Assembly (NCBI GenBank): GCA_003194525.1
Contig: NBIV01000143.1
Coordinates: 158,548-222,547, forward strand
From: Gracilariopsis chorda
Lineage: Eukaryota > Rhodophyta > Florideophyceae > Gracilariales > Gracilariaceae
Direction of reading: 5' to 3'
DNA length: 64,000 nt
Program-made: the position numbers and the translations under genes
The notes under the pieces: model-generated
Database searches by the model: none
Told to the model about the DNA's origin: nothing
What the model saw: only the letters and a program-made list of their open reading frames with translations
In this document: positions 1,971-64,000 of the stretch, piece after piece
How the letters are laid out: each line of letters opens with the position of its first letter
Numbering within the stretch: the stretch's first letter is position 1

Positions 1971-3339
1971 TGTAGATAAACGCGTATCGGCATACCCTCT
2001 AGGAGAGGTGGATCATGAATGATTCATTACCGGCATGGCATTGGTTCAACTCAGGTATGAGTGGACCCTTGGAAATGTCCGGTGAAATTCAATATGAATT
2101 TTATTTGGTATTTTTGGAACCTTTAGAGGTGATTTCTGTGATATCTGGAGTAGATGAACGCATGATAAGCGTACGGATATTATTCATACCTGGCATGATT
2201 CACACGTGCCGTATTGCGCCGTGCCCGGCCATGCCGCTCAGTGACACAAACGCGTGGGCCACACGTGTGGCACACTACAGTAGAAGTATCCTTAGTTTTA
2301 TTACAAGGGTAAGAAGGGCCTTCGGCCCTATCACTCTTTCCTGCAGTTGTGACGTCTGCATCTTGCCTGCACGAGAGAGATGTAGGGCCTCCCGACCACA
2401 CTTTCCTGCAGTTGTGACGTCTGCAACTTGCCTGCAGGAAAGAGGTGTAGGGCCGCCCTACCATTCTTTCCTGCAGTTCTGACGTCTTTATCTGGCGTGC
2501 GGGAAACAGTGGTAGGGCCGGAACTTGAGCAGTCACAAACCTGAGAATCAAATGTTTTGGTTGACCAAAATGTTTGGTTATCATTGGCGCAAAAATTTGG
2601 GGAACCAAAAGGCTCAAAAAATGAACGTGAAGCAAGATTTTGGGTGCTGGCGCAGTTTGCGCCAAAAACCGATATCGTGCATTTTACTAATTTTTTAATG
2701 GGTGCGAAGGTCGTTGTCGCACAAATCCTTAGTTAGATTAGATGGCCCCATAGTAATTAAGGGAGGACGGCCTTGCCCTTTCACCATAAAATAAAGTTAA
2801 GCTGTGACTCGGCACTGATTTTATCGCCTGGGCGAAGTGAGTAGCTTCCTTTTGGGGTTCACCGCGTTCAATCTCGTTATACTCAGTCAAAACTTGTCAA
2901 CTAGAACCGCTGATTTGTCTTACTGCGTGGGTTCTCTCAGTGTTCATTGTTTTTATCGTATTGCATATTTTTTATAGTGGGAAAGGATAGTCGTTTGACT
3001 CATTACTGAGTTTTGCCGTGCTGGCCGAGTGAGCAGCTCTCCAAACGTCAGATCCCTTCCTGCTTTCCGCATGATCCGTCGGATTGTTTCTTTACCGTTG
3101 GTTCTTTCCTTCCGTTTCCAAGTTTCCACTTTTGACTCTCCGTGGACCAGAACAGCGCTTACGTGGACCTTTACACTAAGTTTACCGGCTAAGTCTTCCG
3201 TCGATATAGCCGGAAGCAACATCGATTTTACACCCAAACACCGTGCGGTACAAAGGGCCCTGTCGCTTTGCCTACCCCGCAAGAGAGCTAGGCTGCGAAA
3301 AACATGAGAAAATCTTCCGCCTAGAGATATTGAACCACA
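1971..3339 (+). repeat. 5' LTR of gypsy element 1
   Basis: The sequence starts TGTAGA and ends CCACA. It can be followed in the 3' LTR: 1971-2300 matches 13045-13350, about 2740-2790 matches 13370-13430, and 2800-3339 matches 20942-21502. The 3' copy lacks roughly 420 bp (about 2310-2730). The boundary at 3339 is set by the primer-binding site that follows. The right part holds U5-like pyrimidine-rich sequence. Promoter and polyadenylation sites were not resolved. Confidence 0.75.
2337..2520. repeat. Three tandem 65-bp units in the LTR U3 region
   Basis: Units begin at 2337, 2402 and 2467, each opening TTTCCTGCAGTT and followed by a TGACGTCT motif, then a GTAGGGCC motif at the end. The second unit is also nearly palindromic (TTTCCTGCAG with CTGCAGGAAA). 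TGACGT is the core of CREB/bZIP sites, so an enhancer role is plausible but inferred. The array falls in the part missing from the 3' LTR. Confidence 0.8.
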
Positions 3340-13044: not shown

Positions 13045-13434
13045 TGTAGAGCAATACGTACGCGCATGCTCTCTAGGCGAGGAAGATTATGAATGAATCA
13101 GTACGGACGTGGCATCGGTTCAGCGCATGGACGAGTGGAACCTTGGAAGTCTGGTTGAAAATGGATATGAATCTTATTTGGTATTTTCGAACACTTCTTG
13201 GGTGATGTATACGATATATGGAAAAAATGGACGCGTGGTACGCATACGGAGGTTATTAGTGGCGGGTATTATTGAAACGTGTCGTGCTGCGCGGCGAACG
13301 GCCATGCCTCTCAGTGATACAAACGTGTAGAGCACAAGTGTGGCACACTACAGTAGTAGTATTATTAGTTTCCTTATGATCCAATAGTAAATTAAAGAGA
13401 GCATCCTTGCCTTTTTATACTGAAGTGAAGATAA
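13045..13434 (+). repeat. 3' LTR of gypsy element 1, left part
   Basis: Aligns with the start of the 5' LTR (CTCTAGGCGAGGAAGATTATGAATGA against the region at 2000-2022) and runs through GTGGCACACTACAGTAG to the insertion point of the TIR transposon. The U3 tandem repeats of the 5' copy are absent. Confidence 0.8.
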
Positions 13435-13457
13435 CGTCGGTGTTCTCGGAATGCTAG
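13435..13457 (+). repeat. Left terminal inverted repeat
   Basis: CGTCGGTGTTCTCGGAATGC followed by TAG; its reverse complement with one change is at 20919-20941. It lies exactly at the break in homology to the LTR of element 1. Confidence 0.88.
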
Positions 13458-13662
13458 ATAAGGGTGCTAGATCGCAAGTTTGTTAGGCAATCACTCAAAA
13501 AATCTACGAAAACGCTAGATTCTGCTAGTTCGTGGTGGTTGGCAAGCAAAAAAAAAATTTTTTCGGAAATCACTCTTTCATATTTTCTATTGTCATCCGT
13601 CCCTAGTACCTCACTTCGCTAGTTTCAAGTTTAGAGCAAGTTCTTTGCTCACTAAACGCTAG
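13453..13662. repeat. Subterminal GCTAG repeats
   Basis: GCTAG occurs at 13453, 13466, 13514, 13524, 13618 and 13658, six times in 210 bp. The right end has the reverse form CTAGC at 20810 and 20919. Short subterminal motifs repeated near both ends are typical of transposase binding sites in CACTA-type elements; binding here is inferred. Confidence 0.65.
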
Positions 13663-13681
13663 TTAGAGGGCTCGAAATGGC

Positions 13682-13702
13682 GCTGGCCGCGTAGCGGCCA
13701 GC
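13682..13702. repeat. Subterminal hairpin, left end
   Basis: GCTGGCCGC (13682-13690) and its exact complement GCGGCCAGC (13694-13702) are separated by three bases. The stem is nine GC-rich pairs. A second hairpin sits about 200 bp from the right end. Confidence 0.7.
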
Positions 13703-13876
13703 GGCCCCACCCCCATGCAACCCAAATTAACTTACATATTTCCATCTCGTGGATTTCAAACTTCAAATTGTCAAAGTTTGGAGCCCAACTGTTCTCTCAG
13801 CCTCACTGGGTGGCACCCACACTCTTGAACACCAAACATAAAAACTCCCTTAGCATCCTTACCAGCCTTCTTCTCC

Positions 13877-14640
13877 TTATCCTCTCATTCCACGCCTCCT
13901 CTTCAACCGACTCTCACCTTCTATTCCTTCGTCGTCCTTCTCCTCCAACCTCTTCCTTACAGCCCCTCGACCGGGAGTAACAGGAGTGCCTTCCCCGACA
14001 ACAGCTCTCCCTTCCGCATCACACACCTTCTTCTGCATTTCCTCGATTAGATGCACAGCCCTACCAACCAGTAAAAGTTGCTTCTCCAACACCAAAACCC
14101 GTCTACGCATCTCCTCGTTCTCCTTCCACAGTCTCCTCAGCTCCTCACCCACACACGCCACAACCCCATCGACATGCATTTCCGCCCACACCCCAGCCTC
14201 CCTTGCCCTCCTACGCAGCTCAGCCACAGCACCCATAGGCACCCCTTCCTCTGAAGAACTCAGCACCATCCCATCCCCCCCATCTCCACCACAACCTCCT
14301 CGATACACTCATCCAAACGCTCCTTAAGCCCTCCGCCCACGCTCCTCACCATTTTCTTCACATCGCGGTAAAACCGACTCATTCGCCCCGCCCCACCTCC
14401 TCCTCCTCCCCGTCCTCCTCGACTTCCCTCGCCCTCACTTCCCTCCCCCCCATCCCCTCCCATCATCGTCCCAACCCCAAGCTCCCCGAACCCAACAACG
14501 TTCCTTCCCTTGCCCTCTTCACCATCACCCTTCCCTTCCTCCTCCTTCTTCGTCCTTGGAGGCGTCTCGGGGACCTCCCTCTTCTCCACTTTATCCAACA
14601 ACGCCAGTAGCTCCTCATCATTCACGTCTTCGCTAGACAT
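13877..14640 (-). CDS. Coiled-coil acidic protein, one frameshift
   Basis: Two overlapping minus-strand ORFs (14640 to 14260 and 14308 to 13877) appear to be one protein of about 250 residues split at a C run near 14275-14282. The start at 14640 opens MSSEDVNDEELLALLDKVEK. A glycine/glutamate-rich linker follows, then MSRFYRDVKKMVRSVGGGLK, then a long charged helix after the frame change (ELRRLWKENEEMRRRVLVLE) that is clearly coiled-coil, and a basic tail (RLKRRRGMRG). A DNA-binding or transposase partner role would fit a second protein of a CACTA-type element, but no family is recognised. The homopolymer shift may be a sequencing error. Confidence 0.55.
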
Positions 14641-14882
14641 GGCTACTACACGCCCCACCACAACGGCGCTCCCGTTCCTATCCCAACCACCAAGCGAGCA
14701 CTCCCCAGGTACTTATCCAACCGCATTTTTTCACTCGCCCGTTTTCGCGCCATTTCCCACCGAGTCGTGTCCCACCAATAATCTGAAACGAAAAATTTAG
14801 AACGACATTAGTTTAACACTTCCTTCAGTTTACAACTCTATCACACTAACTTAGGTATGTACAGGTAGAACTACGAACGTGT

Positions 14883-15756
14883 CTAAAGAAATGGTTCAAA
14901 ACGAGAACCAACAGGCCTACAGTGCTCTCCTAGATTCGCAACATACCTTCGAAAATGGTACTCCAAGTCCATATCCACAGCCATACCCAAAAGAAGCAGC
15001 ACGAAAAAGATAGTATTCTCCACTACAGGCGCGAGTCCCCTTACCTTGTGCAAAGAAGTATCGCTCAGGAACGTGAAAATCAAGTAGGTAAACACAACAG
15101 GGAACACCCTTCCGATATAGAGCCTCATAGTAGCCACACCATCTCTAAACCCAAGCACCTTATTCAAACCACCGTATACGGTCCTGCACACATCCAAAAT
15201 CAGCCCAACACTACCTCTCTGCACATATGGGAGCTCTCTCTCATTGTTAATGCTGTCCCTAGTCACAAAAAACATCGTTAGCCGTTCAACCACATACGAC
15301 ATACCCCCAAACATGAAACCACCAGTGAAAAATGCAAGAGCACCAGTCCTAAGTTCCATTCCAATCGAAATTGGCGCTTCCAAGAAGTGATAGCCAACAA
15401 AAATACAAACATTCAACGGCAAAAGACCTGCCATCGTGAATCCAAGTAGTCTGTTTCGAATCACAGAAATCCGTGCCATTCGCTGGCTGTCCCGCAAAGG
15501 TACGTATGCCAATGAACCAAAATGCCTTCTATGCAATGCAAACACCATATCGAAGATAAACAAATGCAAAACAGTCTCCAGAATTACCACAATCAACATC
15601 TTCGGAGACATTCGAACATCCCCTACCACATAATGCATCAAAAGCGGTTTCAATACCCCATAAAGAGCACCAATGGCTAATGAAAACAGAAACGCATATG
15701 CGCACCAAGCCCATGCTTTTCGCTTTTCCTCGCGTAGTCGGCATTTCTATGTCAGG
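14883..15756 (-). CDS. Multi-pass membrane protein of unknown function
   Basis: The frame is open from a TAG near 15757 to the stop at 14883. The first ATG lies near 15638; upstream codons encode another hydrophobic stretch (WCAYAFLFSLAIGALYG), so the start may be further upstream across an intron. Five further hydrophobic segments fall, counting from a non-ATG start at 15653, at residues 19-40, 69-91, 104-130, 183-199 and 211-228, separated by basic loops. That gives about six transmembrane helices in 256-290 residues. No family is recognised. It is unbroken, lies inside the TIR transposon and is divergent from the methyltransferase gene, so it is most likely cargo. Confidence 0.65.
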
Positions 15757-16068
15757 CCTTCGCAGCGAAGCGGATTTCCTGGGACAATGCTTCTTCGTCT
15801 TCGTAGAACTCTTATTCCGGCCAAGAACCACGCTGCAATCTTGAAGCGTTCGCGTGATCAAGTTGTCGTGGCACCCAGTCGCGTAAGATGCTCTCGTGAT
15901 CACGTCTGCTCGGTTCAGGCGACGTGAGCATCTATACTTTTGAAATACATGGTATTGAAGACGTTTCCTGACAACCATTAAGTTCATTTAGGCGGCGCTG
16001 CAATGCACCTGTAATGATTTTGCATTGGTATTCGAAGTTTGTTTTTGGGGGTGGCGGCCAGCAGTTCC

Positions 16069-16185
16069 GAAAATCAAAAAATTAGTTTAAAATTAGTGTC
16101 TGGAATGAACGGACATCTGCGGTACGACCTAGTAGGTCATGGGCGGAAGATGCATGGTTCATTTTACACTAATTTTTTGATTTTC
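16069..16185. repeat. Inverted repeat between divergent genes
   Basis: GAAAATCAAAAAATTAGT at 16069-16086 is repeated exactly in reverse complement at 16168-16185, with shorter matches further in (ATGAAC/GTTCAT). It lies between the membrane gene and the methyltransferase and ends just before TCTGAACAG. It could be a small MITE, a promoter dyad or part of an intron. Confidence 0.7.
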
Positions 16186-16219
16186 TGAACAGCTGGGTGG
16201 GGATAATGAGGTCGAAGAG

Positions 16220-17263
16220 GTGGTGGAGAGTGTGGCTGCTCCAAGAGCTACTACTGGTCTGCAGACAACGACATTGTCTCAGAGACTGACGTACAGCGTG
16301 AAGGAGACTGGTGTTCAACCTCCACCGTATCCGAAGACTTTAGATCAGTTGATGTCGTACGAGTACTGTGAGAGGCAGATGTCCCGCAGCTTCCGTCTTC
16401 ACAACTGCAGTTTCCAAGACCTTGTCAAAGTCGACGACAACAAGTCCGGGGACAGCGAACTATCCATTGAAGGAAGGGTACAGTTCGTGCTTTCGGATCC
16501 CCCATATGGGACTCGTGCAGAGCGTAATCGGGAGAACAGTGGTCATGATGTTCTCACCGAGAAGACCATGGCCCGGGCATGGAAAAGAATTTCAAAGTTG
16601 CTACGTCCCGGTGGGCATGTTATATTGTTCTGCTCGTGGGATCAGATACAGAAGTGGCGGGAGGTGCTGCGGAGTGTTACGTACACAGATGACTCTGGCA
16701 CAACTCGTTTTTCTTTTGTCGTGGACGAACAACCCCTCCAGTTCGTACGATCCATGGGGAACTCGATGGGTAATCCGGGAAGGCGGAGCTGTCGGCTGTA
16801 CCAGACGTCGGAGTATGCCGTACATGCAGTGCGCTCTGGGGTCCCGTATTCCCAACAGCACAGAATGGTGAACTATGAGAACTTTAATTTTATCCCTTCA
16901 CGCTACCCGGCATATCACGCAATCATAGACCAGGTGCCGCCTATGTCTTATGGCGAAACTCTGCTATGGAATGTGACAAACTCGGAGAGAATCACTACGA
17001 GGAAAAAGGTGCGACCGGAACAGAAGTGTAGGGCATTGCTGAAGGAACTCATTTGCAGGTTTAGTCAGCCAGGAGACCTAGTGGTTGACCTCTTTGCGGG
17101 GACGTTCTCTACAGCGATGGCATGCATGGAACTGCCGAAGCACCGGATATTTGTAGGATGTGAAGACGATAAAGCTTGCTTTGAACACGCAAAGCATGCT
17201 GCTATTGTTCGTTTTGCTTCTATAATCCGGGAGGGAAACACCAATCTTGAGAAGAACCAATAG
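16220..17263 (+). CDS. Beta-class DNA N6-adenine/N4-cytosine methyltransferase
   Basis: A protein of 347 residues if the GTG at 16220 starts it; the frame is open from 16181 with no ATG, and TCTGAACAG at 16184-16192 resembles a 3' splice site, so an upstream exon is possible. Motif IV (DPPYG) is at residues 93-97, motif VI (LRPGGHVILFCSW) at 128-140, and motif X/I (ELICRFSQPGDLVVDLFAGT) at 276-295, followed by RIFVGCEDD. The order IV before I is that of beta-class amino-methyltransferases (Pfam N6_N4_Mtase), a mostly bacterial class acquired by a few eukaryotes. It ends in TAG and continues in the same frame into a SET fragment. It is transposon cargo. DNA methylation of the host or of the element is inferred. 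Confidence 0.85.
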   Translation: MVESVAAPRATTGLQTTTLSQRLTYSVKETGVQPPPYPKTLDQLMSYEYCERQMSRSFRLHNCSFQDLVKVDDNKSGDSELSIEGRVQFVLSDPPYGTRAERNRENSGHDVLTEKTMARAWKRISKLLRPGGHVILFCSWDQIQKWREVLRSVTYTDDSGTTRFSFVVDEQPLQFVRSMGNSMGNPGRRSCRLYQTSEYAVHAVRSGVPYSQQHRMVNYENFNFIPSRYPAYHAIIDQVPPMSYGETLLWNVTNSERITTRKKVRPEQKCRALLKELICRFSQPGDLVVDLFAGTFSTAMACMELPKHRIFVGCEDDKACFEHAKHAAIVRFASIIREGNTNLEKNQ

Positions 17264-17665
17264 CTCAGGAAGATGGCCCATACTGTTGTCATCGCATTTC
17301 CAATGGGCAGATTGAGGCATACCTTGTCATGGAAGGCAGTCAATGGCTTTTCTCCGTACCAGATGCTTCCCCCACACGTCGTCCAGTTCCTGTCGACGCT
17401 GTGGAGAAGTGAAGAGGTAGCCAAATTGGGTAAGAGCAGGACCTTCGATCAATGGTCTAGCGTGGTGCAGGGTAGGATGAATCTGGAGAACATGAACTTG
17501 CTGCTGGCAATGGAAGCTGTGCATTATGGACTACGAATCAGCAAGTCTACTATTCGCCACGATAACGCTGGTGTTGGAGTGTTTCCAACTCGTCGAATTG
17601 CTGTAGGGGAGGTAGTGTGCTACTTCTATGGGACACTCGTGTATCATGATCTGACGTGGAATTGA
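17264..17665 (+). CDS. Partial SET domain in frame with the methyltransferase
   Basis: The frame is the same as the preceding methyltransferase, separated from it only by the TAG at 17261-17263; the first ATG is at 17273. About 100 residues of unrecognised linker precede LRISKSTIRHDNAGVGVFPT and RRIAVGEVVCYFYGTLVY, the N-terminal half of a SET lysine-methyltransferase fold (GxGxF, then I-x-x-GE-V). The C-terminal SET half (N-H-x-C, Y of the active site) is not visible in this frame, which stops at 17665, or in the next. It is either truncated or completed by an unrecognised segment after a frameshift. Confidence 0.6.
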   Translation, partial: LRKMAHTVVIAFPMGRLRHTLSWKAVNGFSPYQMLPPHVVQFLSTLWRSEEVAKLGKSRTFDQWSSVVQGRMNLENMNLLLAMEAVHYGLRISKSTIRHDNAGVGVFPTRRIAVGEVVCYFYGTLVYHDLTWN

Positions 17666-18144
17666 AGAAGCAGTTAGAGGAAGCGAGAAGCAAGTTAATG
17701 GGAAAGGAGGTAGAGAAGAGCCGAATCTTATGTGCATGGAGAATGAGTGCGATTGACGATCTTACATATTCTGGATTTCAAGTTGCTCGAAGGTTAAGGG
17801 ACTTTGGTGGGGAGGACATGTACTTTAAGAACGGAGCTGCGGTAGAAGTGCTGGCAGAGTTTATGGGATATGAGGTGGTACCGGGAGGCGAAGGGAAGAC
17901 AGATTATGTGGATGGAACTGTGATGCATTTGGCACGCTTGGATGCTTGGATCGGATGTGTTTTGACTGCGTTGGACACGAATGTGGGCCGTGGAGGAAAA
18001 CGGCAGTTATTGTTTTCAAAGTTGTTTGGTGAGTATCTCCCGCTTGCTCTGGAGAACATAATTGGGGTGGCATGGGAGAGAGTGAGGGAACGGCACCATG
18101 AGGAATTGGAGAATGTTTGGATGTCTTGGAGTAGTGAGATTTGA
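17654..18144 (+). CDS. Continuation ORF after the SET fragment, unrecognised
   Basis: It is open in a different frame that overlaps the end of the SET ORF. It begins ELKKQLEEARSKLMGKEVEK (coiled-coil) and runs 160 residues to a stop at 18144. It could be the C-terminus of the methyltransferase-SET protein after a frameshift near 17650. Its last 280 bp overlap the 3' end of the minus-strand transposase ORF, so one of the two reading frames there is probably not used. No domain is recognised. Confidence 0.4.
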
Positions 18145-20377
18145 AGAGGACGTGGGCATGTTCGAATATGCCTGCGTCGTTGAAGTGCAGACCTCCGTAT
18201 CTACGTATGTCGTCGACGATGTGATCGAGGAGATGGAACTTGAGGGTACCGAGGTGCGAAGAGTGGTAGGGTCCGAGGACGGTGGTGGCTGTGAGTTTGA
18301 AGGATCTGATCTGTCGTTCGAGTGATTTGAGAGAGTCTTCGGTCCATTCGGAAGTGGAGTTGTATCGCATGGCGTAGAGAACGAGATCTGTGTACTTGGT
18401 GAAGACGGAAGTGATTGGGGAGGAGTCGATTTCGTTGCAGCATCTGTCGAAGAATGCTCCGATGAAGGGGAATACCATGTCGAGTGCGCGGTAATCTTTT
18501 GCTTCGAGCATTCCACGGAGTCCTTCTGTGGTGAAGAAGCCGTTAAGAGCTTGAGCGTTGTCGGAGGTGGAGAAGTCTATGTGGAGTCCAGTTGCAGGGG
18601 AATCTTTTTCGATGGCCGCAAGAATGGAGTTGGAGTGTTTGAGGATGGAGGTGCGGATGGATTGGAAGGATCTCTTGGATTTGCTGGGACCGACAATGGA
18701 GAAGAGGGAATCGGATCGGAGACGTTCGATTGCGGTGGCTTTGATGAGTTTAGAGACGCCGAGGTGGAAGTTATGCAGTGGCTCGAAGGCGAAGATGTTG
18801 TAAGAAGAGAGAAGCGGAGTGATGTTGAAGATGGGGTTTGATTCGAAGAGAGAAGTGTACTTTGCGAGGGAGAGAGAATGAAGTGCTGTTGCTGCCTCTT
18901 CTTTTTTGGTGCGTGCCACTTTTGGTTTCCGGGCGAGTTGCGCTTCCTCGGATTCGCGGAGAAGGCAGGTGTGCTGTCTGCGATTGGTTCGAGTTTGGAG
19001 TTGTGTGCGGAAGGGGATGGGATCTGTATTGAGGAAGAGGTGTTCCCGAGGGACGGTGCATCTCGGGCAAGGGTGCTGCGGCCGTGTTCCGTGGGAGATG
19101 GCGAGGATGTCCTTTGCTTCGGGGATGTCTGCACAATAGCTGGCGAGGATGGGGTGGCAGTGGCGGAGGACACCGTGAGCGTCACGGAAGGAGAATCCTG
19201 GGAGCGCAGAGGTGAGGAGTGGGTTGAGGATGGTAGAGATGGCGCGCTGAATGAGGTTCATTTTGGTCTCGCGTGGGATGTTGGAGGATGATTTCGGGAC
19301 GTAGTCGCCGCCGTCGTCGAAGGCGGTAAACGGGGAGAAGGAGGTTGGAAGGTATCCGAGGAGTGTGAGATTTTCGGATATACACTTTCGGCGGAGGGCA
19401 TCGGAGAAGTTGAGAAACGTGACGTGGAGGGGGTAGGAATTGACGGAGGAGCTTTTCAGGGAGGTTGCGGACTTGTCCGAGTAGAGCTGGACGAGGCCGA
19501 TGAATGATTCGATACCGGTTTCCTGGGGGGTGTGCCAGACGATGTCATCGACGGGGGACTGCATAATTTCCTGTTTGATGGCTGGGACGACTTTCTTTCC
19601 GAGGGCTGCAGCCATGGGATGTGCGAAACCCGGGTGACCAGAAGACGAAGAAGATGAGGAAGATTGAGATACCGGCTGGAAGAAGGTGTTGTTGAGGTGT
19701 GCGAGTGCGAGTTGTTGCTTGAGGACGTCGATGGCACGTTTCTGGAAGAGGGTTGCGGAGAAGGTGTTGCGCTTGTCTGTGACGGTGGAAGGGATGAAGC
19801 CGTTGGAGCTGATGCGTTGCTTGAAGAGGTCCTCTTGCAGTGCGAGGCACTGCCTGGCGGAGGAGATGGAGGTCTGGAAGGAGGACTTGGAGAAGTCTGG
19901 ATGGTTGAGGATGGAGATGAGCTCGTCTGCTTTGCGGGTGCTGACGGAGGATGCGATGGAGGAGATGTAGAGGACGAGTTGTTCGAGATGAGGGTTGTCG
20001 GCGAGAGGGGAAGGGGAACGAGAAGGGGGCGGGAGAAGGGGGTTTGAGGAGGAGACGGAGCCGATGGCGTGACTTGCGATATGGTAAGCGTCTTGGGTTT
20101 GAAGAGAGAGGGAAGCCTGTTGAAGTTCATATGGATCATCATCGGCGAGGGGGACGTTGTTGGAAGGACGGTGAGAGGGAAGGGGAGGAGAATTGATGGA
20201 GAGGTTGGGAACGGATTTTCGCTTCTTGGTCCTGGGAGGGAACTGAACTGGAGCGGTGCCTGTGGAGGAGGAACGCTTGTTGGCGGTGAGGCGATGGGGG
20301 CACCTGCGTTGGTGACTCTGAAGAGAGTATGTGGTGCGGCCGTGGAAGGAGCAGCGAGGGTAGCAACAGGGGAACAT
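17861..20377 (-). CDS. Plavaka/tnp2-like transposase
   Basis: The open frame extends up to 20581, but the ATG at 20377 starts directly before an N-terminal zinc finger (MFPCCYPRCSFHGRTTYSLQ then SHQRRC), as in Plavaka transposases, giving about 838 residues. A serine-rich linker is followed by the core: SYPLHVTFLNFSDALRRK, LTLLGYLPTSFSPF, HPILASYCADIPEAKDIL, HPCPRCTVPREHL (zinc knuckle) and FAFEPLHNFHLGVSKLIK, then HLLDHIVDDIRRYGG and EHAHVLFKSHYSKTSKH near the end. These match the order of the tnp2/Plavaka family. The frame is uninterrupted, so it is possibly active. The last 80 or so residues are low-complexity and overlap the convergent plus-strand ORF. Confidence 0.78.
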   Translation of the reverse strand: MFPCCYPRCSFHGRTTYSLQSHQRRCPHRLTANKRSSSTGTAPVQFPPRTKKRKSVPNLSINSPPLPSHRPSNNVPLADDDPYELQQASLSLQTQDAYHIASHAIGSVSSSNPLLPPPSRSPSPLADNPHLEQLVLYISSIASSVSTRKADELISILNHPDFSKSSFQTSISSARQCLALQEDLFKQRISSNGFIPSTVTDKRNTFSATLFQKRAIDVLKQQLALAHLNNTFFQPVSQSSSSSSSSGHPGFAHPMAAALGKKVVPAIKQEIMQSPVDDIVWHTPQETGIESFIGLVQLYSDKSATSLKSSSVNSYPLHVTFLNFSDALRRKCISENLTLLGYLPTSFSPFTAFDDGGDYVPKSSSNIPRETKMNLIQRAISTILNPLLTSALPGFSFRDAHGVLRHCHPILASYCADIPEAKDILAISHGTRPQHPCPRCTVPREHLFLNTDPIPFRTQLQTRTNRRQHTCLLRESEEAQLARKPKVARTKKEEAATALHSLSLAKYTSLFESNPIFNITPLLSSYNIFAFEPLHNFHLGVSKLIKATAIERLRSDSLFSIVGPSKSKRSFQSIRTSILKHSNSILAAIEKDSPATGLHIDFSTSDNAQALNGFFTTEGLRGMLEAKDYRALDMVFPFIGAFFDRCCNEIDSSPITSVFTKYTDLVLYAMRYNSTSEWTEDSLKSLERQIRSFKLTATTVLGPYHSSHLGTLKFHLLDHIVDDIRRYGGLHFNDAGIFEHAHVLFKSHYSKTSKHSPIPHGAVPSLSPMPPQLCSPEQAGDTHQTTLKTITAVFLHGPHSCPTQSKHIRSKHPSVPNASQFHPHNLSSLRLPVPPHIP

Positions 20378-20581
20378 GGTGCGGGAAGGAGAGTTGAAGG
20401 ATTGGAAGGAGAAAGGGGAGGAAAGGGGTTGGAGAGCGAAATGCGGGAGCGTAATTATTATGGCGCACGGGGATGAAGTGGAGCAGGTGATGCCGAGCGT
20501 TTTGCGCTGGGTCGTGGACTGGTGCATGCTATGCAAGGCCGCAGACACTGACAACGAGTGAAGGATAGCGAGGGCTATCAT

Positions 20582-20918
20582 GTTTTGTAAACTCTAATGT
20601 ATTTCCTATATATGTATTTATCTGAGCATCCTATCCTTCTATTTGAAGGGGCAGTTCCGGTGGTCCGGTCAGATTTTCAATCTCACGTTCACATGTGAAG
20701 GTATGTAGTAGTGGAGTCTGGACTCCACTTCGCGGAGTCCGGACTCGGTTTTTGGTCCGAAATAACTTGGAAATAGGAAGTGCTTTACTAGTTTATACTT
20801 TCAAAAAACTAGCAGTGTTGAATGTGTGAAAATATTTTGATGGAAATTGATTCATTCAAAAGTGGGTTTTAAGAGTCGATATCCGTCCATTTCAATTCTT
20901 TCCCTTTTGATTGTCAAA
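20582..20918. other. Right subterminal region of the TIR transposon
   Basis: There is no gene. It contains a hairpin at 20714-20746 (13-base arms built on GAGTC/GACTC, one mismatch, loop of 7) and one CTAGC motif at 20810. Composition becomes A/T-rich towards the end. Confidence 0.6.
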
Positions 20919-20941
20919 CTAGCATTCCGAAAACACCGACG
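20919..20941 (-). repeat. Right terminal inverted repeat
   Basis: CTAGCATTCCGAAAACACCG followed by ACG is the complement of 13435-13457 with a single C/T difference. Homology to the LTR of element 1 resumes immediately after it. Confidence 0.88.
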
Positions 20942-21502
20942 AAAGTGTGACTCAGCTCTGAGTTTATGGCATATGCGAGGTGTCCAACTCCTATCGGTCT
21001 TTTACCGCGTCCAGTCTCGTTATAATCACCCGCGCAGTATCGAATAGAACCGCTGATCTGTCTTATCATGTGGGTTTACCCACTCTCAACTCTTGTTACC
21101 GTTTTGGATACTTTCTTATAATCGGAACAGATATTGGTTCGAATCAGTATTGAGGTTTCCCTTGCTGGCTGAATAAGCAACACCTCTACCTTTGGGTGTT
21201 TTTTGGATTTCCGCACAATCCGCTGGGTTGTATCTTTTTTTCCTGATTATTTTCCTCCTTTTCCCTTTTTTCCATTGGATTCTGCGTGAAATGGAACACT
21301 GTGTACACGAACCTTTGCAATAAGTCGACCCGCTGATAACCCGATTCTCGGTAGCACCCCCGTCGTTATAGCTGGAAGCCACCTCAGTTTTACTCCTGAA
21401 CACCGTGCGGTACGGAAAGCCCTGTTGCTGCACCTTCCTTGCAAGAGAGCAACCCCGCGAACACCTTGGGAGGATCTCATGTCTAGGAATATTGCTCCAA
21501 AG
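20942..21502 (+). repeat. 3' LTR of gypsy element 1, right part
   Basis: Aligns with 2800-3339 of the 5' LTR: GTGTGACTCAGCTCTGA against TGTGACTCGGCACTGA, AGAACCGCTGATCTGTCTTA against AGAACCGCTGATTTGTCTTA, and CACCGTGCGGTAC in both. Its end is placed near 21502 by analogy with CCACA in the 5' copy. Confidence 0.78.
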
Positions 21503-25601: not shown

Positions 25602-26907
25602 TGGAATGCAACTTGGTATTGTGCCTACGACTGGTCGAGAATGGGTACGTGGTGTGGTTCGATGGATCCGGCTGCACCATCACCAAGGACGGCAAAACAA
25701 TCAAATTGCAGCAATGTGAAGGAGTGTATACCTTGTTGGCTAAGGAAACTGGCCATAGAGCTATGGGAGCTAAGGATCCCAAAGGTTTACGACTCTGGCA
25801 TGAGAGGCTTGGTCATATTGGAAAACAGCAATCCGCCAAATGGCCAGCAGAAAGCCTGTGTTGGGGCTCAACCTAGAGAACAGGCCTCAGCAGGGTGCAG
25901 ACTATGTTCCGTGTATTGAAGGAAAGATGAACAGACTGATCCTGGCTGGAAGAAGCACAGGCAATGCACACATTGGAGATGTAATATTCACCGACATATG
26001 TGGGCCGCTCAGTACACCTAGCATTAGCAACAGAAAGTACTTTGTATCATTCATCTATAAGAAGTCCAGGTACAAAAATGTACGCCTAATCTCGAAGCGG
26101 AAGGAATTGACAAGTCAGTTCAGGTGCTTCCAAATGAAGTTTGAGAGACAAACGGAGAAAAAGATCAAGCTTGTGTACTCGGACAACGGACCAAAGTATG
26201 TGGAACTACGCAAGTACCTCGCCACTGAAAGCATTGACTGGGAAAACAGCGCACCATACACACCGCAGCAGAATGGTGTGGCCGAACGCTTCAATCGATC
26301 GGCGATGGAGATGGTCAGGGCAATGCTAAGACATGCAGGGTTGCCTTTACGCTTCTGGGGAGAAGCAGTAGTGACTGCGACAAGGATATTGAACAACTTG
26401 AGCAGCAACGCAACAGGTGGGAAAACGCCTCACGAAATGTTGACTGGGAATGCCCCGAACGTCAGCTCGATGAGGACCTTTGGTTGCGAAGTATGGGTTC
26501 ATGTCACTAAGAGGAAGAAACTGGAGAGCAAAGCTCGTCGTGGCATCCTCCTGCGTTGCTTAGCTCACCTCAACTACCGTGTTTACGATATTGAAAGAGG
26601 TTCCATTAGGTTCGCAAGGCATATTACCATCAATGAAACTGCATTCCCGGGGAGAGAATTGTTCGGGAACAGCGCTCAAAACGTATCAGTTGTCCAGGAG
26701 GATGTAGTTCAGCAAGAACCTCCATCACTTAGCCCGCAAGATGAAGAATTTCATGTCGAAGTACCTGTAGAAGATGTGGATGAACGTAGCCCAGAAGTGG
26801 AATTCGGGAAGGTGGAGAATAAAGACAACGGCACAAGGAACCTTGGAAATGAAGACGGACATGAAGAAGCAGATGGGACAGAACATGAAGCCGAACAACA
26901 ACCATGA
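25602..26907 (+). pseudogene. Copia A pre-integrase and integrase
   Basis: It resumes at ECNLVLCLRLVENGYVVWFD, continues through LWHERLGHIGKQQ (the GAG-pre-integrase HxLGH motif), then the integrase core after a frameshift near 25840: DVIFTDICGPLSTPS with the first catalytic D, YSDNGPKYVELRKYL with the second D, and TPQQNGVAERFNRSAMEMVR with the E. An acidic linker follows. The ORF 25840-26907 ends at TGA. The single frameshift and the stop make it inactive as read. Confidence 0.85.
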
Positions 26908-26934
26908 AGTATTGAGTCAAGCGAGGACTTAATA

Positions 26935-27732
26935 ATGACACCAAGAATCCAAGAATTCTTAACTCATTACCCAGCACGACGCTATACAGAACGTAATCGT
27001 CAACCCCCAGCAAGATTCTCTGACATGCATGACAGCTCCCTCATCTCACGGGCGCACAGTGCTAGTTCTACTCCCGAGGATTTGCAAGAAGCGAAGCAGC
27101 CCACTGATTGGAGGAGCTGGGAGAAGGCAGTCGAGGAAGAATTGGCATCTCTGAAGAAAATGGAAACATGGGACGTGGTCCGTACACCCACGGGAGCAAA
27201 ACTCATTGGCTCCAAGATCATCTTCGCTACAAAACAGAGTGATAAAGTTTCTGTCTCCACATGCAAGGCTAGGATAGTCGCAAAGAGATGCCAACAAGGA
27301 CATTTACCCCAACTATACTCACCTGTAGTTGACTTTGGCACAGTCCGTGTGGCACTAACACTCGCCTGCTTTCTTGGTCTTGAAATACATCAGCTTGATG
27401 TGAAGCGTGCAATTCTGAATGGTCACATTGACAAGGGTGAACCGATTTATATGCTACCTCCAGAACGACTGAACATCGGTTTGCAAGACGACGAGGTGCT
27501 CAAGCTGAATAGATCCATCTATGGTCTAAAGCAGTCAAAAACGATCTGGAGCAGATTGTTTACTAAACGCCTTCTGAACCTTGGATTCACACAGTGCTTG
27601 ACAGACCCGTGCTACTTTTATATGGGTCGCAAAGAGCAGAGACTATGGCTTTTACTCTACGTTGATGACGTCCTCCTCATGGGAAAGGACAAAGATCTCA
27701 TAGCCAAGATGAAGAGCTTGCTGGCTTCATAA
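26935..27732 (+). pseudogene. Copia A reverse transcriptase
   Basis: In frame with the integrase ORF. It carries LDVKRAILNGHIDKGEPIYM, YGLKQSKTIWSRLF and the polymerase box LLLYVDDVLLMG (about 27652-27687). It ends at TAA (27730-27732) and then continues in frame as FEMKECRKTNSFLEVYIQRE, the normal RT thumb sequence. The stop therefore interrupts rather than terminates the protein. Confidence 0.88.
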
Positions 27733-32552: not shown

Positions 32553-33998
32553 TCAGCTTCTGAACTTCATTATACCGTGACACTGTTCAATTTGTTTCAT
32601 AAAGCAATCTCTATTAGTACCAGTGTGACATAAAAACACTTCTTTTTCCTTTCTGATATAGCACCCAGAACATAAAAACTTGGACTTTGTATTACCTTTG
32701 CAGAAATTGCATCGTCCTTGATATAAAGCTTTTGTAATCTTGCCATTCTTGTTTTTTCTCCTTCTATTCGTCTGCATTAAATGCAAGCCAGTGCCTGCAA
32801 ACATTGGCGTCTCATGAACATTTTCCCATTGTTGCTCATCTCTACTCATTAGACCTGTGGTATCCCATGTATTCTCAATTAGTTCATCAGCCAATTGGCA
32901 ATAGAAGTGGTGCGGACTTTTCACGTTTCTGGTTCTATTTGCGGCTTTGTACAACTTCCACGCGTCCACAATACAGATCGATAAAACAGAGCAATTCACT
33001 CGAAATGACCACTCTTTCACTTCAATTTTCTTCTCCAGATTCAGATCATCTTGTCTGCATCTGTTATGGCGATCGACCATTGAACAGTTTTTGTAATACT
33101 CTTCACACACTTCGGGAATTGCGACCTCCAATTCCACTTTCTTAGAAATATTTCCCTCCCGTCTCCAACTTTCTCGAATAATAGGAGAACCAGCATTAAC
33201 CGTGCCAGAGGTTGATACGAAATACCTTCTTTCTCTGTCCATCCAAATTATAGCCATATGTCATTATTGATAATGCTTCCTTTCGATAGCATATATACAA
33301 AATCTCCCCTGTCCGATAGAGTAGTTTCGGAGAGATGTGTCATAGGATATTCACGAGTAGAATTTTTGATGACTCCAGTAAACCTTAAACCTTTCTCCAG
33401 TAATGCTTTCGCGGTACTGACAAACGCAAAAAAGGAATCTGCACATACCAACCTTTCTGATCCAAACCATGGTTGCACTAAGCGAAGTAAGACTGCCGTT
33501 CCATGGGCGTTATCAGAATCAAAAACTTGTTCCGGAATATTTGCACCCATGTTGAGCTCAATGTTCAGCATTATGCCACTTCGTGCACAACATACGGCCT
33601 TCATTTCAAGACCATTTTCTGGCTTTCTATCTAATGCCGTATAGTGTGGAAGCCCAACATCAAACCAATTACCGCCTAATACGCACCATCGTGACATTAC
33701 TTCGTCAACACATAAGGCATGTGATGGCGTGACAAAAGACCGACGATGGTCATTGATTGCCTTCACAAAATCTGCTACGAAAGACCAACGCGCGATTCCC
33801 TGCTCTTCAGTCACACCATTTCCGCTGAAGCATATTGAACTTCTAAGCATTTCAAATATGTTCCGTGACATCGCAAGACCAATATTTGGCTGAGGAATAA
33901 ACTTAGCAAAAGGCTCGAGGCTCCAAAGATCCCGTGTGCTAGAGAACTCAATGCGAGTCATGAGGATAAGAATTCCAAAGAATTTGAGCAATTCTCCC
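32553..33998 (-). pseudogene. piggyBac-like transposase, C-terminal part
   Basis: Two minus-strand ORFs overlap (up to 33998 and 33257 to 32553), with one frameshift near 33250. GELLKFFGILILMTRIEFSS opens the DDE_Tnp_1_7 (piggyBac) core. Catalytic aspartates are likely in LCVDEVMSRW, VCADSFFAFV and MVDRHNRCRQ. The C-terminal cysteine-rich zinc domain is present (CNFCKGNTKSKFLCSGC then CHTGTNRDCF). Its N-terminal part is 11 kb away at 45158-45917, because gypsy element 2 inserted here. A domesticated or once-active DNA transposase is possible; it is dead in its present form. Confidence 0.82.
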
Positions 33999-34734
33999 TG
34001 TGGTACTCCACTAATGCCTGTAAGGGCCTCGGTAGCGGGGTGGAAAGCCACAAACGAACCACGAATGTGGGTGTTGCCTTGCGGGCTACGGGGCTAGAAG
34101 ATCAGTGCCAAGGTGGGAGCACCAGCAGTACGAATGTCACGTGTGTGAACAGCGTATCCGAGAGCGGAGACTCAGCGTAGCCAAAAGATAAGAGTATCAG
34201 ACGGTCCTGTGGCAAACACAACAATATCAATAAACAAAAGAGCAAAACGAGAACAGTCAGCTGTAAAACACGTGAGGATATCCTCGGAACAAAGAGCTAT
34301 AGCTAAGAAACGATTAAGTACTGATACTATATGTGCCTCTGTGTCGTAAACGACTTAGGATTCCTGACGGTCTGACCAAAGGGTCAGGAGCTGAGGGTGT
34401 TGGTTGGCCTTCGCCTCCTTCACCTGGGCAGGTCGCCCTTTACTAGGCTGCGAAGCCAATCAATAGTCTGACAGTAGTGTCTAAATGTGTGGCTCTCCAC
34501 TAACTATAATAATAAAATATAAGAAAATAATTAATTAATTAGTGGCGGCCCACTACAGTACCATGCACAGCAGTGCAGTGCCAGATTACCATCCATGGTT
34601 CACATTCCTCCATAAAGGGGTTACATTCATAGTCCTTGCTGGGCAGCCATGTACTGTAGCACCATACTATGAATGTCGTCCTCGACTCAGCTCACGATCC
34701 GGCATACCGATACCATTGCATTCCAAATGCTACA
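33999..34734 (-). repeat. 3' LTR of gypsy element 2
   Basis: 736 bp, TG to CA on either strand. On the minus strand it follows a polypurine tract (complement of 34735-34745). Confidence 0.92.
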
Positions 34735-34745
34735 TATCCCCCCCG
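34735..34745 (-). other. Polypurine tract of gypsy element 2
   Basis: The minus strand reads CGGGGGGGATA immediately before the 3' LTR, the usual primer for plus-strand synthesis. Confidence 0.75.
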
Positions 34746-44421: not shown

Positions 44422-45157
44422 TGTGGTATTCCACTAATGCCTGTAAGCACCTCGGTAGCGGGGTGAAAAGCCACAAACGAACCACGAATGTGGGTATTGC
44501 CTTGCGGGCAACGGGACTAGAAGATCAGTGCCAAGGTGGGAGCACCAGCAGTACGAATGTCACGTGTGTGAACAGCGTATCTGAGAGCGGAGACTCAGCG
44601 TAGCCAAAAGATAAGAGTATCAGACGGTCCTGTGGCAAACACAACAATATCAATAAACAAAAGAGCAAAACGAGAACAGTCAGCTGTAAAACACGTGAGG
44701 ATATCCTCGGAACAAAGAGCTATAGCTAAGAAACGATTAAGTACTGATACTATATGTGCCTCTGTGTCGTAAACGACTTAGGATTCCTGACGGTCTGACC
44801 AAAGGGTCAGGAGCTGAGGGGGTTGGTTGGCCTCCGCCTCCCTCACCTGGGCAAGTCGCCCTTTACTAGGCTGCGAAGCCAATCAATAGTCTGACAGTAG
44901 TGTCTAAATGTGTGGCTCTCCACTAACTATAATAATAAAATATAAGAAAATAATTAATTAATTAGTGGCGGCCCACTACAGTACCATGCACAGCAGTGCA
45001 GTGCCAGATTACCATCCATGGTTCACATTCCTCCATAAAGGGGTTACATTCATAGTCCTTGCTGGACAGCCATGTACTGTAGCACCATACTAGGAATATC
45101 GTCCTCGACTCAGCTCACGATCCGGCATACCGATACCATTGCATTACAAATGCTACA
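44422..45157 (-). repeat. 5' LTR of gypsy element 2
   Basis: 736 bp; partner of 33999-34734. Most of the visible differences are transitions (about 11 of 16). Confidence 0.92.
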
Positions 45158-45917
45158 CTTCCCCTGAAGTCCTCCGAATGTCTTTACTTTCTAACCGAAC
45201 ATTTTTTTCTGTTCACTATGAACTGCAAATGCTGCATAGGGAACATCCAAAGGAAGAAATCTAATACACTCATGTTTGGAGGAACGTGACGCGGTAAAAT
45301 AAAATCTCCGGCTGTGCCAACCAGTTTCCACTAATACATTTGCATACAAACATTCAGAGGACTCAACTTCGTACAGGTTTCCTACACACGACCATGAATC
45401 ACAGTCGATTGGACAGGTCCATTTTCGCTTAATGAACTTGTTTGTGGCTGCAAAACGTGCGTCTCAGATGGTGTCACAAGAGCATCTTCCTCGATAGTTT
45501 GCGTATTATTGGGTTCAACATCGGTAATAGGCTCTTCTGCAGCATTCACGGCTTCGTCAACACCGGTACTTAGTGTGATTCTAGATGGAGGTAGAATTAC
45601 TTCTTTTTCTGGGTTCGGTAGACTAAACTTCACAGTCGGAAAAGTGAGATTTCGATTGTTGACCTTTCCAATGTCAACATTGAGGACAGAACCTTGTACC
45701 GTTGTTGAATTCCATTGAGACACATAGTAACGTTTGCATTCAGCGTCATTTGTAACCAGACAAGCACGGCTGTTGACAGTTGTTCCAACAGTTTTGCGAA
45801 GATCTGTGGACGGGGCCATTGTGTACGAATGTTGTTGATGATAGTGCTTGATGTAACAGCTACGACTGTTGGTGAAAGGTTGTGGACATGGTTCAGCACT
45901 GCCGGCGTGGAAGACAT
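45158..45917 (-). pseudogene. piggyBac-like transposase, N-terminal part
   Basis: The segment adjoining the LTR reads FILPRHVPPNMSVLDFFLWM then FPMQHLQFIV (about 45190-45290), the start of the piggyBac DDE domain (S-x-x-E/D-F-F, then IV-x-x-TN). It joins GELLKFFGILILM at 33998 once the gypsy element is removed. Upstream, frames 45382-45819 and 45630-45917 supply an acidic, Thr/Pro-rich N-terminus (PNNTQTIEEDALVTPSE), as is common in this family. Frameshifts are present. Transposon ends and TTAA sites were not found. Confidence 0.65.
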
Positions 45918-46504: not shown

Positions 46505-46659
46505 TGGGTCATCGTCAGCAGTTGCATCGCGCCCATCACCAGTTCAGTGCACCTTTCTTCGTTCTGTGAGTAAAGTTATGTTTTTGACCCTCGCATCCAC
46601 TTTGTTGGACTGGTGGTGACAAACAAGTATACCACTTCGGAGCAATTGACCAGCTGAGA

Positions 46660-48843
46660 CGCTTGTTCTCACTGCCCATTGCGGAGTTTGCTTTATTGAT
46701 TAATCGACGCTCGGGAAAGTCTCTTCTTTCCCAAACCATGCAATACGCTACGTTTATGGAGTTGTACAAACAACGCACTGACACTATTCTCAGCTCGAAT
46801 ATTGAAAAATACAGCGTTATCGGAAAAAGGCGATCACGAGAAGGCGATCTATTATTCATCCAATGCTGTCGGAGGCGCACATAACAAAGACGTGAAAGAG
46901 CTTTGCGGCACATGTATTTTGGGTCTTAAAGCTCGGGAAGCACTCGAAAGCAGCTGATACCTTGGAAATTTAACGAAACGCATCCCAGACAACTCCATGT
47001 TGGCGTACATCATGAGCGAGTTACATCGAAAAACGACATCTCCAAGAAAAGCATATGTGGTTGTAGAAAAAATGATGAGAGATTGTAAAATTCGTGCTCA
47101 GAGGAGGAGCTCAGCTCGTCAGAGCAAACTCAAACCGATTCAAGTTCTTCTGGAGATTATCATCGGGATTCGCTTTGTTGAGGAGAGATATCTCGATGCT
47201 GCCGACCTTCTTTCAAGATGAAAGATAGTAACACAGATATTGTATGTTGGATGCTTTTTGTACAACGGTTATTGGAAGCTGTATGTCACCATCGCTTTCT
47301 TTCTACCACTGCAGCCGAGCCTACTTTTCAGGAGTTCTAGGAATTCCAAGCAGAATAGAAAAACACGTTGTTCTACTTTGACCAGTCGCGGACGCATGTA
47401 GAAGAGGATCAAACTTTTCTGATAAGACATGAGCGTCCACCTTACCACTCTATATAGGCGCTGAGTTGGAGGACCCGGTTGATGCCCGGCTTATTTGAGC
47501 AGTTTGTGCTGTATTGGAGTTGGCGATATGAGTACAGCAAATTCTGATCTGGAATGGGTGCTATCGGTACATCCCCGTTACATGTTGGAGCCTCAATGCG
47601 GTACCCACAGTTTCAAACTCCGTAAGAAGTGGTCTGAGTAAAGAGAAATGCCACCAAGAAGTATTCAGGCCAAACTGAGCACTGCTCTTTGAAGGTGAAG
47701 AAAACAAAACAGGAAGTTGATGCCCTCGCCCGAGGAAGGGAGCTCTTTCAGAAAGGCGACTTCAGAGGGTTTCTTGTTCAAGATTTCACTCCTCTAGAAA
47801 ACGCTTTATTTCTTTGTAAGCCAGGCAGACAACCAGAAAGCCTAATGCTGAAGGTTCGAAAAACAGTAACGATGATCTCCTCGGTGTACGTGAAGGCCAT
47901 GAGAAGCAATCCGATAATTTTGCACCCGCAGACATTACTGAATCCATAGGGCAGAATTCGAACACCAAATAGATAGAGAAAAGCTTCAGGCACTTGGAGC
48001 TACTTTGATTGCGGAAATGGCAGTGTGCCCGTGCCAAGCTTAGGATGACTTGGGAAACCGTAGTCCCTGGTTCGCATTTTTGAATGCTTGGCTCATCTTC
48101 GAATAGCTGGGGGTCGGCCCGATGTGAAACTGCGTTTAAAGGCGTTGGACGTTATCGTGTCTACGGCGGTCGGTGATGGTGCACGTGCCCATGATTCAGT
48201 AAGATTTTTTTTTGGAAGCACCAAAGAATACGGATATGGAGTTCGCATGCTCAGTCATAGACCAAATGAGGATGGAAACAGATGGGCAGCGCTGTAGATC
48301 CTTTCAGTTTCTGAAACGATTATGGCGGAAGAACATTTCGCCGCTCTTACCTTATTTGGTTGGGAATTGCTCTAGTCGAGGAGGGGTTAACATCCGTCGA
48401 TACACGGAAAGTGATATATCTTCATCCGATGAAAATGTTGCCTAAGCATCCTCTTCTATGCCTGTTATTGGCCATTCGGACTTCATACGTTGTGGAAGGG
48501 AAAATCATCCAGAATCGCAACGAGATGGTTACGTATGCGCTGCGTTTTCGGAGCGATTATATGCGAAATGGCAGAAAAGGGGTTCTACCGGAAGAGCATT
48601 GCTTGTACAACACGGAAACTAGCCACGATTTTGGAAGAGATATGCACCACCTTCGCCTGTTGCACTTTGTAACTGAAGCTTACATGCGAGTGCTTGACAG
48701 TGAGAATGAGGGTGCGACAAAAATGCTATATCAGAATGGACCAATTTGCGACGGAACGCGGCGTTCAACTTTGTACAGATCTACAGGGAGGGTGGGGATA
48801 TCAAAATGACTGGCGCAATCTGCAATGAATACTTTGTTTTCTG
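46660..48843 (+). pseudogene. TFIIIC TPR-subunit (GTF3C3/TFC4-like) pseudogene, copy 1
   Basis: Plus-strand fragments in shifting frames: a TPR-like helix pair near 46810-46960 (with copy 2: GDHEKAIYYSSNAVGG, ELCGTCILGLKAREALESS), EVDALARGRELFQKGDF at about 47705, DGQRCRSFQFLKRLWRK near 48280, HPLLCLLLAIRTSYVVEGK with QNRNEMVTYALRF (48450-48545), GVLPEEHCLYNTETSHDFGR with MHHLRLLHFVTEAYMRVLD (48580-48700), and AFNFVQIYREGGDIKMTG near 48765-48820. The last three follow the C-terminal pattern of the TFIIIC TPR subunit (YN-x-GR-x-H-x-x-GL-x-H-x-A, AAxNL-x-x-IYR-x-SG). That protein helps recruit TFIIIB for RNA polymerase III. The frame is broken many times. Confidence 0.6.
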
Positions 48844-49208
48844 AAGCGGTGCGTTGAAGCAGGTAAACAAGGCTATACGCAAAGCTCTATGCAGCACTTC
48901 AGTGGTTCATGAGATGACAAGTTTACGTGAGATATTGGGGCTGACCACTGTTGCGTGCAGATGCGGCATTGTGCGCTGAGGTTCGACACAGCGTTGTAAT
49001 GGATAGTGAAATAATTGCGGTTTCAGCTGCAGCAGAGGATGATAACGACGAAGGGCGGCGACAAGCTGTAGAAGGAATTTATGACAAGATGCAGGCGTTG
49101 AAAATAGTAGCGGTTCAAGAGAAGTAGAGCATAGCTGATTAATACCGTTGATTGATGAAACTGAGAACTAGACGGAAGAAGTATAGTGAGTGCGAAGGTG
49201 GAGATGAC

Positions 49209-49988: not shown

Positions 49989-49999
49989 TGGAGGAGCTG

Positions 50000-50950: not shown

Positions 50951-50960
50951 TTTTATAAAC
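50951..50960 (+). promoter_or_regulatory. TATA box of the zinc-finger gene
   Basis: TTTTATAAAC lies about 80 bp before ATG 51040, followed by the dyad GATACTATCATAGTATC at about 50979. The block from GTTACCGTTGGTA (about 50864) through the ATG recurs at 58080-58265 and, up to the window edge, at 63870-64000. Confidence 0.6.
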
Positions 50961-51039
50961 CCGGCCACTTCGTTCGAGATACTATCATAGTATCCCGGCC
51001 GCGCGTATCAGAAGAGTTTCCATTCCATTTATCGTCGCT

Positions 51040-63960: not shown

Positions 63961-64000
63961 TAAACCCGGCCACTTCGTTCGAGATACTATCATAGTATCC

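Follow-up and report, generated by a model that had tools for sequence, protein, structure and literature searches.

Longer copies of a Plavaka-type DNA transposon in the red alga Gracilariopsis chorda encode a single predicted polypeptide of 1065 amino acids (aa) that would act as a dual writer, namely an N-terminal domain followed by a beta-class DNA amino-methyltransferase (MTase) and a SET domain. One copy of this element lies at positions 13435 to 20941 (no strand assigned) of the stretch analyzed here, 64,000 nucleotides of contig NBIV01000143.1, hereafter the window; at 7.5 kb, it is a non-autonomous, internally deleted derivative of the recently active transposon. Transposons carrying epigenetic enzymes are already known; what appears new is the transposon-borne fusion of a DNA MTase to a SET domain. 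Judged from sequence, architecture, mobility, co-inheritance and purifying selection are established. The overall explanation that we put forward, evenly poised between right and wrong, is that the family element brings a writer of DNA and chromatin-protein marks in one polypeptide and marks itself with it.

The MTase-SET protein and its divergent partner

The fusion is read from one open frame in a longer copy (L012), in which N6_N4_Mtase matches residues 518-756 (E 3.6e-18) and SET matches residues 882-1044 across profile positions 1-105 of 105, at 23.3 bits (cut-off 22.4). The lineage on contig C539 (L038), 42% identical, has a stronger SET match, at 30.6 bits (E 4.8e-7), and a weaker MTase match, at 56.4 bits. 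An alignment of 16 members contains an MTase match in all 16 and a SET match in 11 at E 0.001. Motif IV D-P-P (residues 524-526) is invariant throughout, its fourth residue being Y in 14 members and F or L in the other two, and D721 and G725 of motif I are likewise invariant. Motif IV precedes motif I, the order that defines the beta class, and by these motifs the domain is assigned to the beta-class amino DNA methyltransferases. Amino-methyltransferases in the PDB match the motif I half by sequence, foremost DpnA (E 8e-7) and CcrM (1e-5), with weaker matches to MboIIA (0.016) and RsrI (0.047). The DPPY signature probably indicates N6-adenine specificity; an MTase domain alone cannot distinguish N6-methyladenine (6mA) from N4-methylcytosine (4mC), according to the available text of PMC8885841.

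A database search returns 14 homologues of the MTase-SET protein, eight of which have both domains in their precomputed annotation, at 32-43% identity. In two others (P0013 and P0014) the MTase is preceded by a ParB-like motif, and SET finds no match; an hhalign comparison of this region with the ParB-like region of the element is weak (probability 49.5%, E 1.7e-4). Prokaryotic contigs searched with homologue P0002 yield nine candidate stretches, none confirmed as a close relative.

Comparison of the main family with a roughly 70%-identical subfamily (L012 versus L124) gives a dN/dS of 0.168 overall, 0.139 for the MTase, 0.150 for the N-terminal domain and 0.212 for the part of SET before a frameshift, with dS ranging from 0.67 to 1.1 by region (1.0 overall, 0.67 for the short SET part). 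These ratios place the gene under purifying selection, and the true constraint is probably stronger than measured because L124 is partly degraded.

Divergent from the MTase-SET gene lies a partner whose protein contains two motifs, D-G-x-[HN]-R, which we take to be ParB-like, and HxD..H near the C-terminal end, which we take to be dioxygenase-like. The D, G and R of the former and all of the latter are invariant in nine of nine sequences, and on contigs C550 and C204 both regions occupy one open frame of 1417 aa. No homologues are returned by the whole protein and seven by a narrower region. Partner homologue P0015 and MTase-SET homologue P0002 are each listed with four contigs, the longest of 20,528 bases, so the two genes may be neighbors in another organism as well. 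Between the two divergent genes the window contains a 36-bp inverted repeat (16058-16093 and 16161-16196, 92% identity, 67-bp spacer), and longer copies contain further inverted repeats at this location; these perhaps form a regulated two-way promoter.

The genes travel together across the 91.3-Mb assembly (1081 contigs) that was searched. Within 20 kb of 109 MTase places lie a transposase at 42 (41 on the opposite strand), a ParB-like region at 54 (53 opposite) and a dioxygenase-like region at 40 (all 40 opposite), against a chance expectation of 2-5% for each neighbor. Conversely, of the 52 transposase places, 41 lie within 20 kb of an MTase. Only the best candidates are scored in each search, so the counts are minimum values: the transposase list holds 54 matches (the best 52 of 375 candidates scored), so that absences near an MTase are not firm, and the dioxygenase-like count used 92 of 131 rows, leaving out mostly small fragments, with neighboring rows merged. 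Gene order and orientation recur in the roughly 70%-identical subfamily, which is also bounded by terminal inverted repeats (TIRs). On contig C46, for example, a TIR stands at 175,528; beyond it come matches to the dioxygenase-like and ParB-like regions, the MTase and finally the transposase, whose match ends at 192,604.

The window copy and its relatives in the genome

The left and right TIRs of the window copy occupy 13435 to 13457 (forward strand) and 20919 to 20941 (reverse strand), as delimited by TIR comparison and a genome-wide TIR search. They are 23 nt long and 96% complementary, and comparison of the flanks places the two copies of an AA target site duplication at 13433 to 13434 and 20942 to 20943. 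When the flanks are rejoined minus one AA, they align across the junction to the 5' copy of a long terminal repeat (LTR; window 2747-3332, 66% identity over 607 bp) and to 38 other genomic places at 73-81%; of the 40 rows of the genome search, the top two are the halves of the window itself. This alignment through the junction shows that the element inserted cleanly into the 3' LTR of an older retroelement. Both the 23-bp TIR pair and this insertion site had been named in the original prediction, made from the letters of the window, and both stand.

All 12 copies for which both ends are available, the window copy among them, are flanked by a 2-bp duplication, in eight different sequences, as is the copy on contig C53. 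This agrees with the 2- or 3-bp duplication of Plavaka (CMCT) elements and departs from the 8-bp duplication of KDZ elements (Zisupton type). The element termini are CGTCG..CGACG, neither TGT..ACA (PlavakaA) nor CATCA..TGATG (PlavakaB), and by the termini tested the element fits neither described Plavaka subgroup. Six GCTAG repeats crowd the left end (13453 to 13662, forward strand), six of the seven in the element falling within its first 230 bp. The first 260 bp contain seven CTAG, a count matched by 1 of 10,000 simple base shuffles of that stretch, and these subterminal repeats are candidate transposase-binding sites.

The search for further copies that accompanied the original prediction as a proposed check finds 187 TIR ends genome-wide with the right TIR pattern (at most two mismatches) and a single one with the reversed-pattern control. 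When the left 523 bp serve as query, the best 40 of 134 candidates scored include the window and 39 others at 98-99% identity, all but one of the matches spanning the whole query. The family is young and high-copy.

Twenty further copies were retrieved for comparison, with right-hand stretches added for two. Relative to these, the window lacks segments at element positions of about 2275 (about 5.4 kb), 2617 (about 80 bp), 2768 (about 1.7 kb), 4218 (about 2.3 kb) and 4681 (about 1.3 kb). Summing the missing segments gives an estimated full length of about 18.3 kb, a whole that is not present in any single retrieved copy. Besides the MTase-SET and partner genes, longer copies encode a 1160-aa Plavaka transposase, a membrane protein with five hydrophobic segments and two proteins of no known family. 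The C53 copy, with 11,851 bp between its TIRs, has open genes for the 276-aa protein, the 1065-aa MTase-SET protein, the 821-aa protein and the 1160-aa transposase, and lacks the membrane and partner genes. The C114 copy, which runs to the end of its contig, contains the gene of the 417-aa membrane protein, and its match to the partner covers all 1283 residues tested; its MTase-SET gene is broken. Among the 13 complete copies (12 plus C53), six have an MTase-SET match, full-length only in C53. Complete copies are probably under-counted, the assembly breaking at long copies, because contigs stop inside L011, L014, L022 and C114.

Every gene in the window copy is truncated or split when compared by tblastn with the longer copies. 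From the left, a remnant of the 276-aa gene (13877 to 14712, reverse strand), split between two frames and of no Pfam family, is followed by the membrane-protein gene (14883 to 15746, reverse), N-terminally truncated to residues 143-417 of 417. A frame at 15532 to 15987 (reverse) begins with an N-terminal stub of the partner gene, the rest of which went with the deletion of about 5.4 kb; the 1283 partner residues tested find no match in the window, the surviving stub preceding those residues. The MTase domain follows at 16181 to 17263 (forward; PF01555, E 7.4e-20), with motif IV read as DPPYG at 16496 to 16510 (forward) and motif I as DLFAGTFS at 17087 to 17110 (forward), C-terminal to motif IV in the beta-class order. 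About 424 N-terminal residues are gone, and a stop codon now parts the MTase from the linker and the first 30 or so residues of SET (17264 to 17665, forward, the SET residues at 17567-17656), the remainder of SET being deleted; together the MTase and SET remnants correspond by tblastn to residues 425-910 of 1065. The linker and SET piece alone has no Pfam match, and a full SET domain is absent from the window copy.

Farther right, residues 586-739 of the family-less 821-aa gene, coiled-coil-like by eye only, survive at 17650 to 18144 (forward). The transposase gene (17861 to 20593, reverse) is C-terminally truncated, retaining residues 1-834 of 1160 before an unrelated tail. Its Plavaka transposase domain spans 18755 to 19543 (reverse; PF18759, E 3.3e-21, 76.3 bits against a cut-off of 26.3). 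A CPRC motif (C(2)C) lies at 19058-19069; no H(3-4)H follows it in the stretch tested, the nearest candidate by eye being HNFH.

The domain matches uphold the Plavaka-like transposase and the bacterial-type DNA methyltransferase of the original prediction. Its transposase, methyltransferase and membrane genes, read there as unbroken, are in fact truncated, and an intact five-gene element is ruled out by the comparison with longer copies. SET sequence is present as claimed; it is what remains of the domain at the C-terminal end of the MTase protein, and a separate SET gene is ruled out by the single frame that SET shares with the MTase in other copies.

Elsewhere, the window contains 743-bp direct repeats (33999-34741 and 44422-45164, 97.6% identity) enclosing frames that match an integrase, a chromodomain and a reverse transcriptase (between 36813 and 40943); these repeats are probably the LTRs of a young Gypsy-type element. 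Frames of a piggyBac-type transposase (DDE_Tnp_1_7) at 32556-34093 overlap one 743-bp repeat, and Copia-type integrase and reverse transcriptase frames lie at 25804-27729. A 4.5-kb direct repeat, 98% identical, occupies 46505-50995 and 59504-64000; a C2H2 zinc-finger frame below Pfam cut-offs (50959-52092) adjoins it. In the host genome, RPB2-like fragments occur on contigs C276, C428, C152, C413 and C891, in addition to three long polymerase genes, and are perhaps remnants of viral or plasmid-like polymerases. RPB2 of the host scores 1240 bits with its best PDB entry and 1217 with the next, taken to be those of fission yeast and human, a ranking that by itself would suggest an opisthokont, probably a fungus.

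Functions weighed for the MTase-SET protein

Self-marking against silencing is the likeliest function that we infer for the protein. The transposase would act on the TIRs and the subterminal GCTAG repeats. MTase-SET would methylate element DNA, perhaps at the ends, and would also methylate a lysine of nearby chromatin; the partner may supply DNA binding, recruit to the mark, or edit marks. The resulting marks would keep copies expressible or tune the access of transposase to the ends. At the level of the family the central claim of the original prediction, that of an element equipped with its own epigenetic writers, stands: a single protein encoded between the TIRs carries MTase and SET, and its gene keeps a constant order relative to the transposase. 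The window copy is a deletion derivative.

Several observations weigh against self-marking. First, the window copy cannot make the full MTase-SET protein. Second, the SET match in the main family is weak, clearing its cut-off by 0.9 bits, and members with SET lack the canonical SET motif NHxC, having in its place ND or NE plus a variable residue (NDP, NDY and others). Third, the partner has no significant match in Pfam, NCBIfam, PHROG or PDB, so that its ParB-like and dioxygenase-like labels are motif-level. Fourth, TIRs that enclose a transposase without the MTase, one part of the arrangement that the original prediction had set against its own reading, do occur, in seven of the 13 complete copies (L015, L019, L020, L023, L025, L028 and L029), although all seven are deletion derivatives with a truncated transposase. 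MTase-SET is not needed in cis, because these seven have none and only C53 has the whole gene. Finally, a search of the host for C5-cytosine methyltransferases gives no match, with 10 of 14 control genomes positive, all of them prokaryotes; silencing by 5-methylcytosine (5mC), a threat that the element might have to escape, may thus be absent from this alga. This negative result, weak evidence in a eukaryote, tilts the balance from evasion of 5mC toward use of a mark that is foreign to the host.

A further point against tying the protein to Plavaka elements comes from a search with the C539 protein, which uncovers two further divergent lineages. At their 34 MTase-SET places (drawn from 67 rows after removal of 22 that belong to the two main families and merging of fragments) a ParB-like region lies near 20 and a dioxygenase-like region near 14, all on the opposite strand, and a Plavaka match lies within 20 kb of none. 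Since none of the 34 lies near Plavaka and 20 keep the ParB-like partner, the divergent gene pair looks like a module common to at least two kinds of element. Recurrence of the genes between TIRs, which the original prediction had proposed as a check, is seen in the main family and its roughly 70%-identical subfamily, but not every lineage links the pair to Plavaka. From the side of the transposase, an MTase of one lineage or another lies within 20 kb of 65 of the 114 Plavaka places, and a ParB-like or dioxygenase-like region without an MTase accompanies 14. On contigs C28, C125, C190, C320, C346, C473 and C1065, Plavaka occurs with such a region and with no MTase match among the matches listed; these places are a possible fifth lineage of the module.

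The alternative that best survives, compatible with self-marking and in our estimate just as evenly balanced, is that the partner and MTase-SET pair moves between unrelated elements, Plavaka being one carrier. Beyond the 34 divergent places, it draws on their neighbors: an OrsD zinc-finger frame beside C539, and downstream of the MTase on C172 (L125) a helicase-like reading (PF00270, E 9.3e-6) whose 25.9 bits fall just below the cut-off of 26. TET/JBP genes have likewise moved between transposon superfamilies, as the available part of Kojima (2025; PMC12730594) describes. The transposase of the divergent lineages could nevertheless be a Plavaka beyond the reach of Pfam, more than 20 kb away, or off the contig. 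A fuller form of this idea, in which several unrelated elements carry a two-gene cassette of a dual DNA-base and lysine writer with its divergent partner and thereby gain a self-contained, host-independent chromatin identity, is tentative and somewhat doubtful.

The main functional rival to self-marking is self-restraint or copy-number control, in which the writer marks the element's own ends or chromatin and lowers transposase binding or transcription after invasion. Dam methylation restrains some bacterial transposons, an MTase joined to SET could write a repressive mark, and the GCTAG repeats crowd the left end, where transposase would bind. Deletion derivatives that keep the MTase have also been amplified, as 608-aa MTase frames in ten places and 647-aa frames in three. 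Derivatives without MTase-SET, however, have been amplified as well, L019 and L028 sharing one deleted form and L020 and L029 another, and we regard self-restraint as unlikely.

It is quite improbable that the MTase-SET gene is a passenger, acquired in a single capture, that does nothing for the element. The seven complete copies that moved without it would suit such a passenger, as would the frequency with which transposons pick up genes; dN/dS values of 0.14-0.21, a neighbor order fixed in divergent subfamilies and the retention of the fusion in distant proteins argue to the contrary. Amino-methyltransferases are common in phages and large DNA viruses, yet descent from an integrated virus or giant-virus-like insertion is rejected as extremely improbable, given a unit with TIRs, 2-bp duplications and a Plavaka transposase, no capsid or polymerase named by Pfam among seven longer-copy proteins scanned, and viral contigs with only MTase-domain matches among the loci listed (SET region reached by 0 of 80 ranges, 80 of 132 viral loci being listed, with MTase-only patterns). 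A split phage ParB-MTase as the source finds no counterpart either, a ParB-like motif lying upstream of the MTase in one frame at 0 of 80 viral loci under a strict pattern.

Known systems and significance

To our knowledge, the epigenetic enzymes previously linked to transposons are erasers (TET/JBP), single writers (SET or a cytosine MTase) or MTases captured by the host. Retrotransposons described by de Mendoza in 2018 reportedly encode C5-cytosine methyltransferases without SET; like the present element they would be transposons encoding their own DNA methyltransferase. Among the literature matches listed, no transposon with an MTase-SET fusion is evident from titles and the opening of abstracts.

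The closest parallel is found in TET/JBP-encoding Plavaka and other DNA transposons of fungi, whose termini and duplications are described in the available text of Kojima (2025; PMC12730594). Those elements share with the present one a Plavaka transposase, 2-bp duplications and a cargo enzyme acting in DNA methylation, and there too the cargo is common to several transposon types and an escape from silencing is proposed. Their cargo, in contrast, is a TET/JBP eraser, where ours is a predicted amino-methyltransferase-SET writer, and their termini are of the TGT..ACA or CATCA..TGATG type, where ours are CGTCG..CGACG; the partner protein here, with its HxD..H motif only, has no TET/JBP match in Pfam. 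The same text cites Kojima and Jurka (2014) for HarbingerS and MuDR elements of Phytophthora with a SET gene. These resemble the present element as DNA transposons encoding a SET-domain protein, but belong to other transposase superfamilies, and a fusion to a DNA methyltransferase is not mentioned in that part of the paper (PMC12730594).

The N4CMT enzyme of bdelloid rotifers is likewise a bacterial-type beta amino-MTase coupled to chromatin in a eukaryote (PMC8885841, in its available text). It differs as a captured gene that marks transposons, with a chromodomain reader and an SPPY motif (4mC), whereas the MTase here is transposon cargo with SET and DPPY; Pfam lists no chromodomain in MTase-SET. 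The giant repeats of Amoebidium, flanked by Plavaka, are similarly large, intron-poor, multigene units with a Plavaka transposase; tyrosine recombinase genes are named in the available text (PMC11244446), which does not mention an MTase-SET protein. MT-A70 enzymes are treated in PMC12695648, as far as its available part goes; in the host, an MT-A70 search gives no match, the control genomes being silent too.

A transposon-borne fusion of this kind would join a base mark to a chromatin mark within a single enzyme. Young, near-identical copies of the family, some with the writer and some lacking it, share one genome and so offer a natural within-genome comparison, which bears on whether the writers that transposons carry evade, exploit or restrain silencing.

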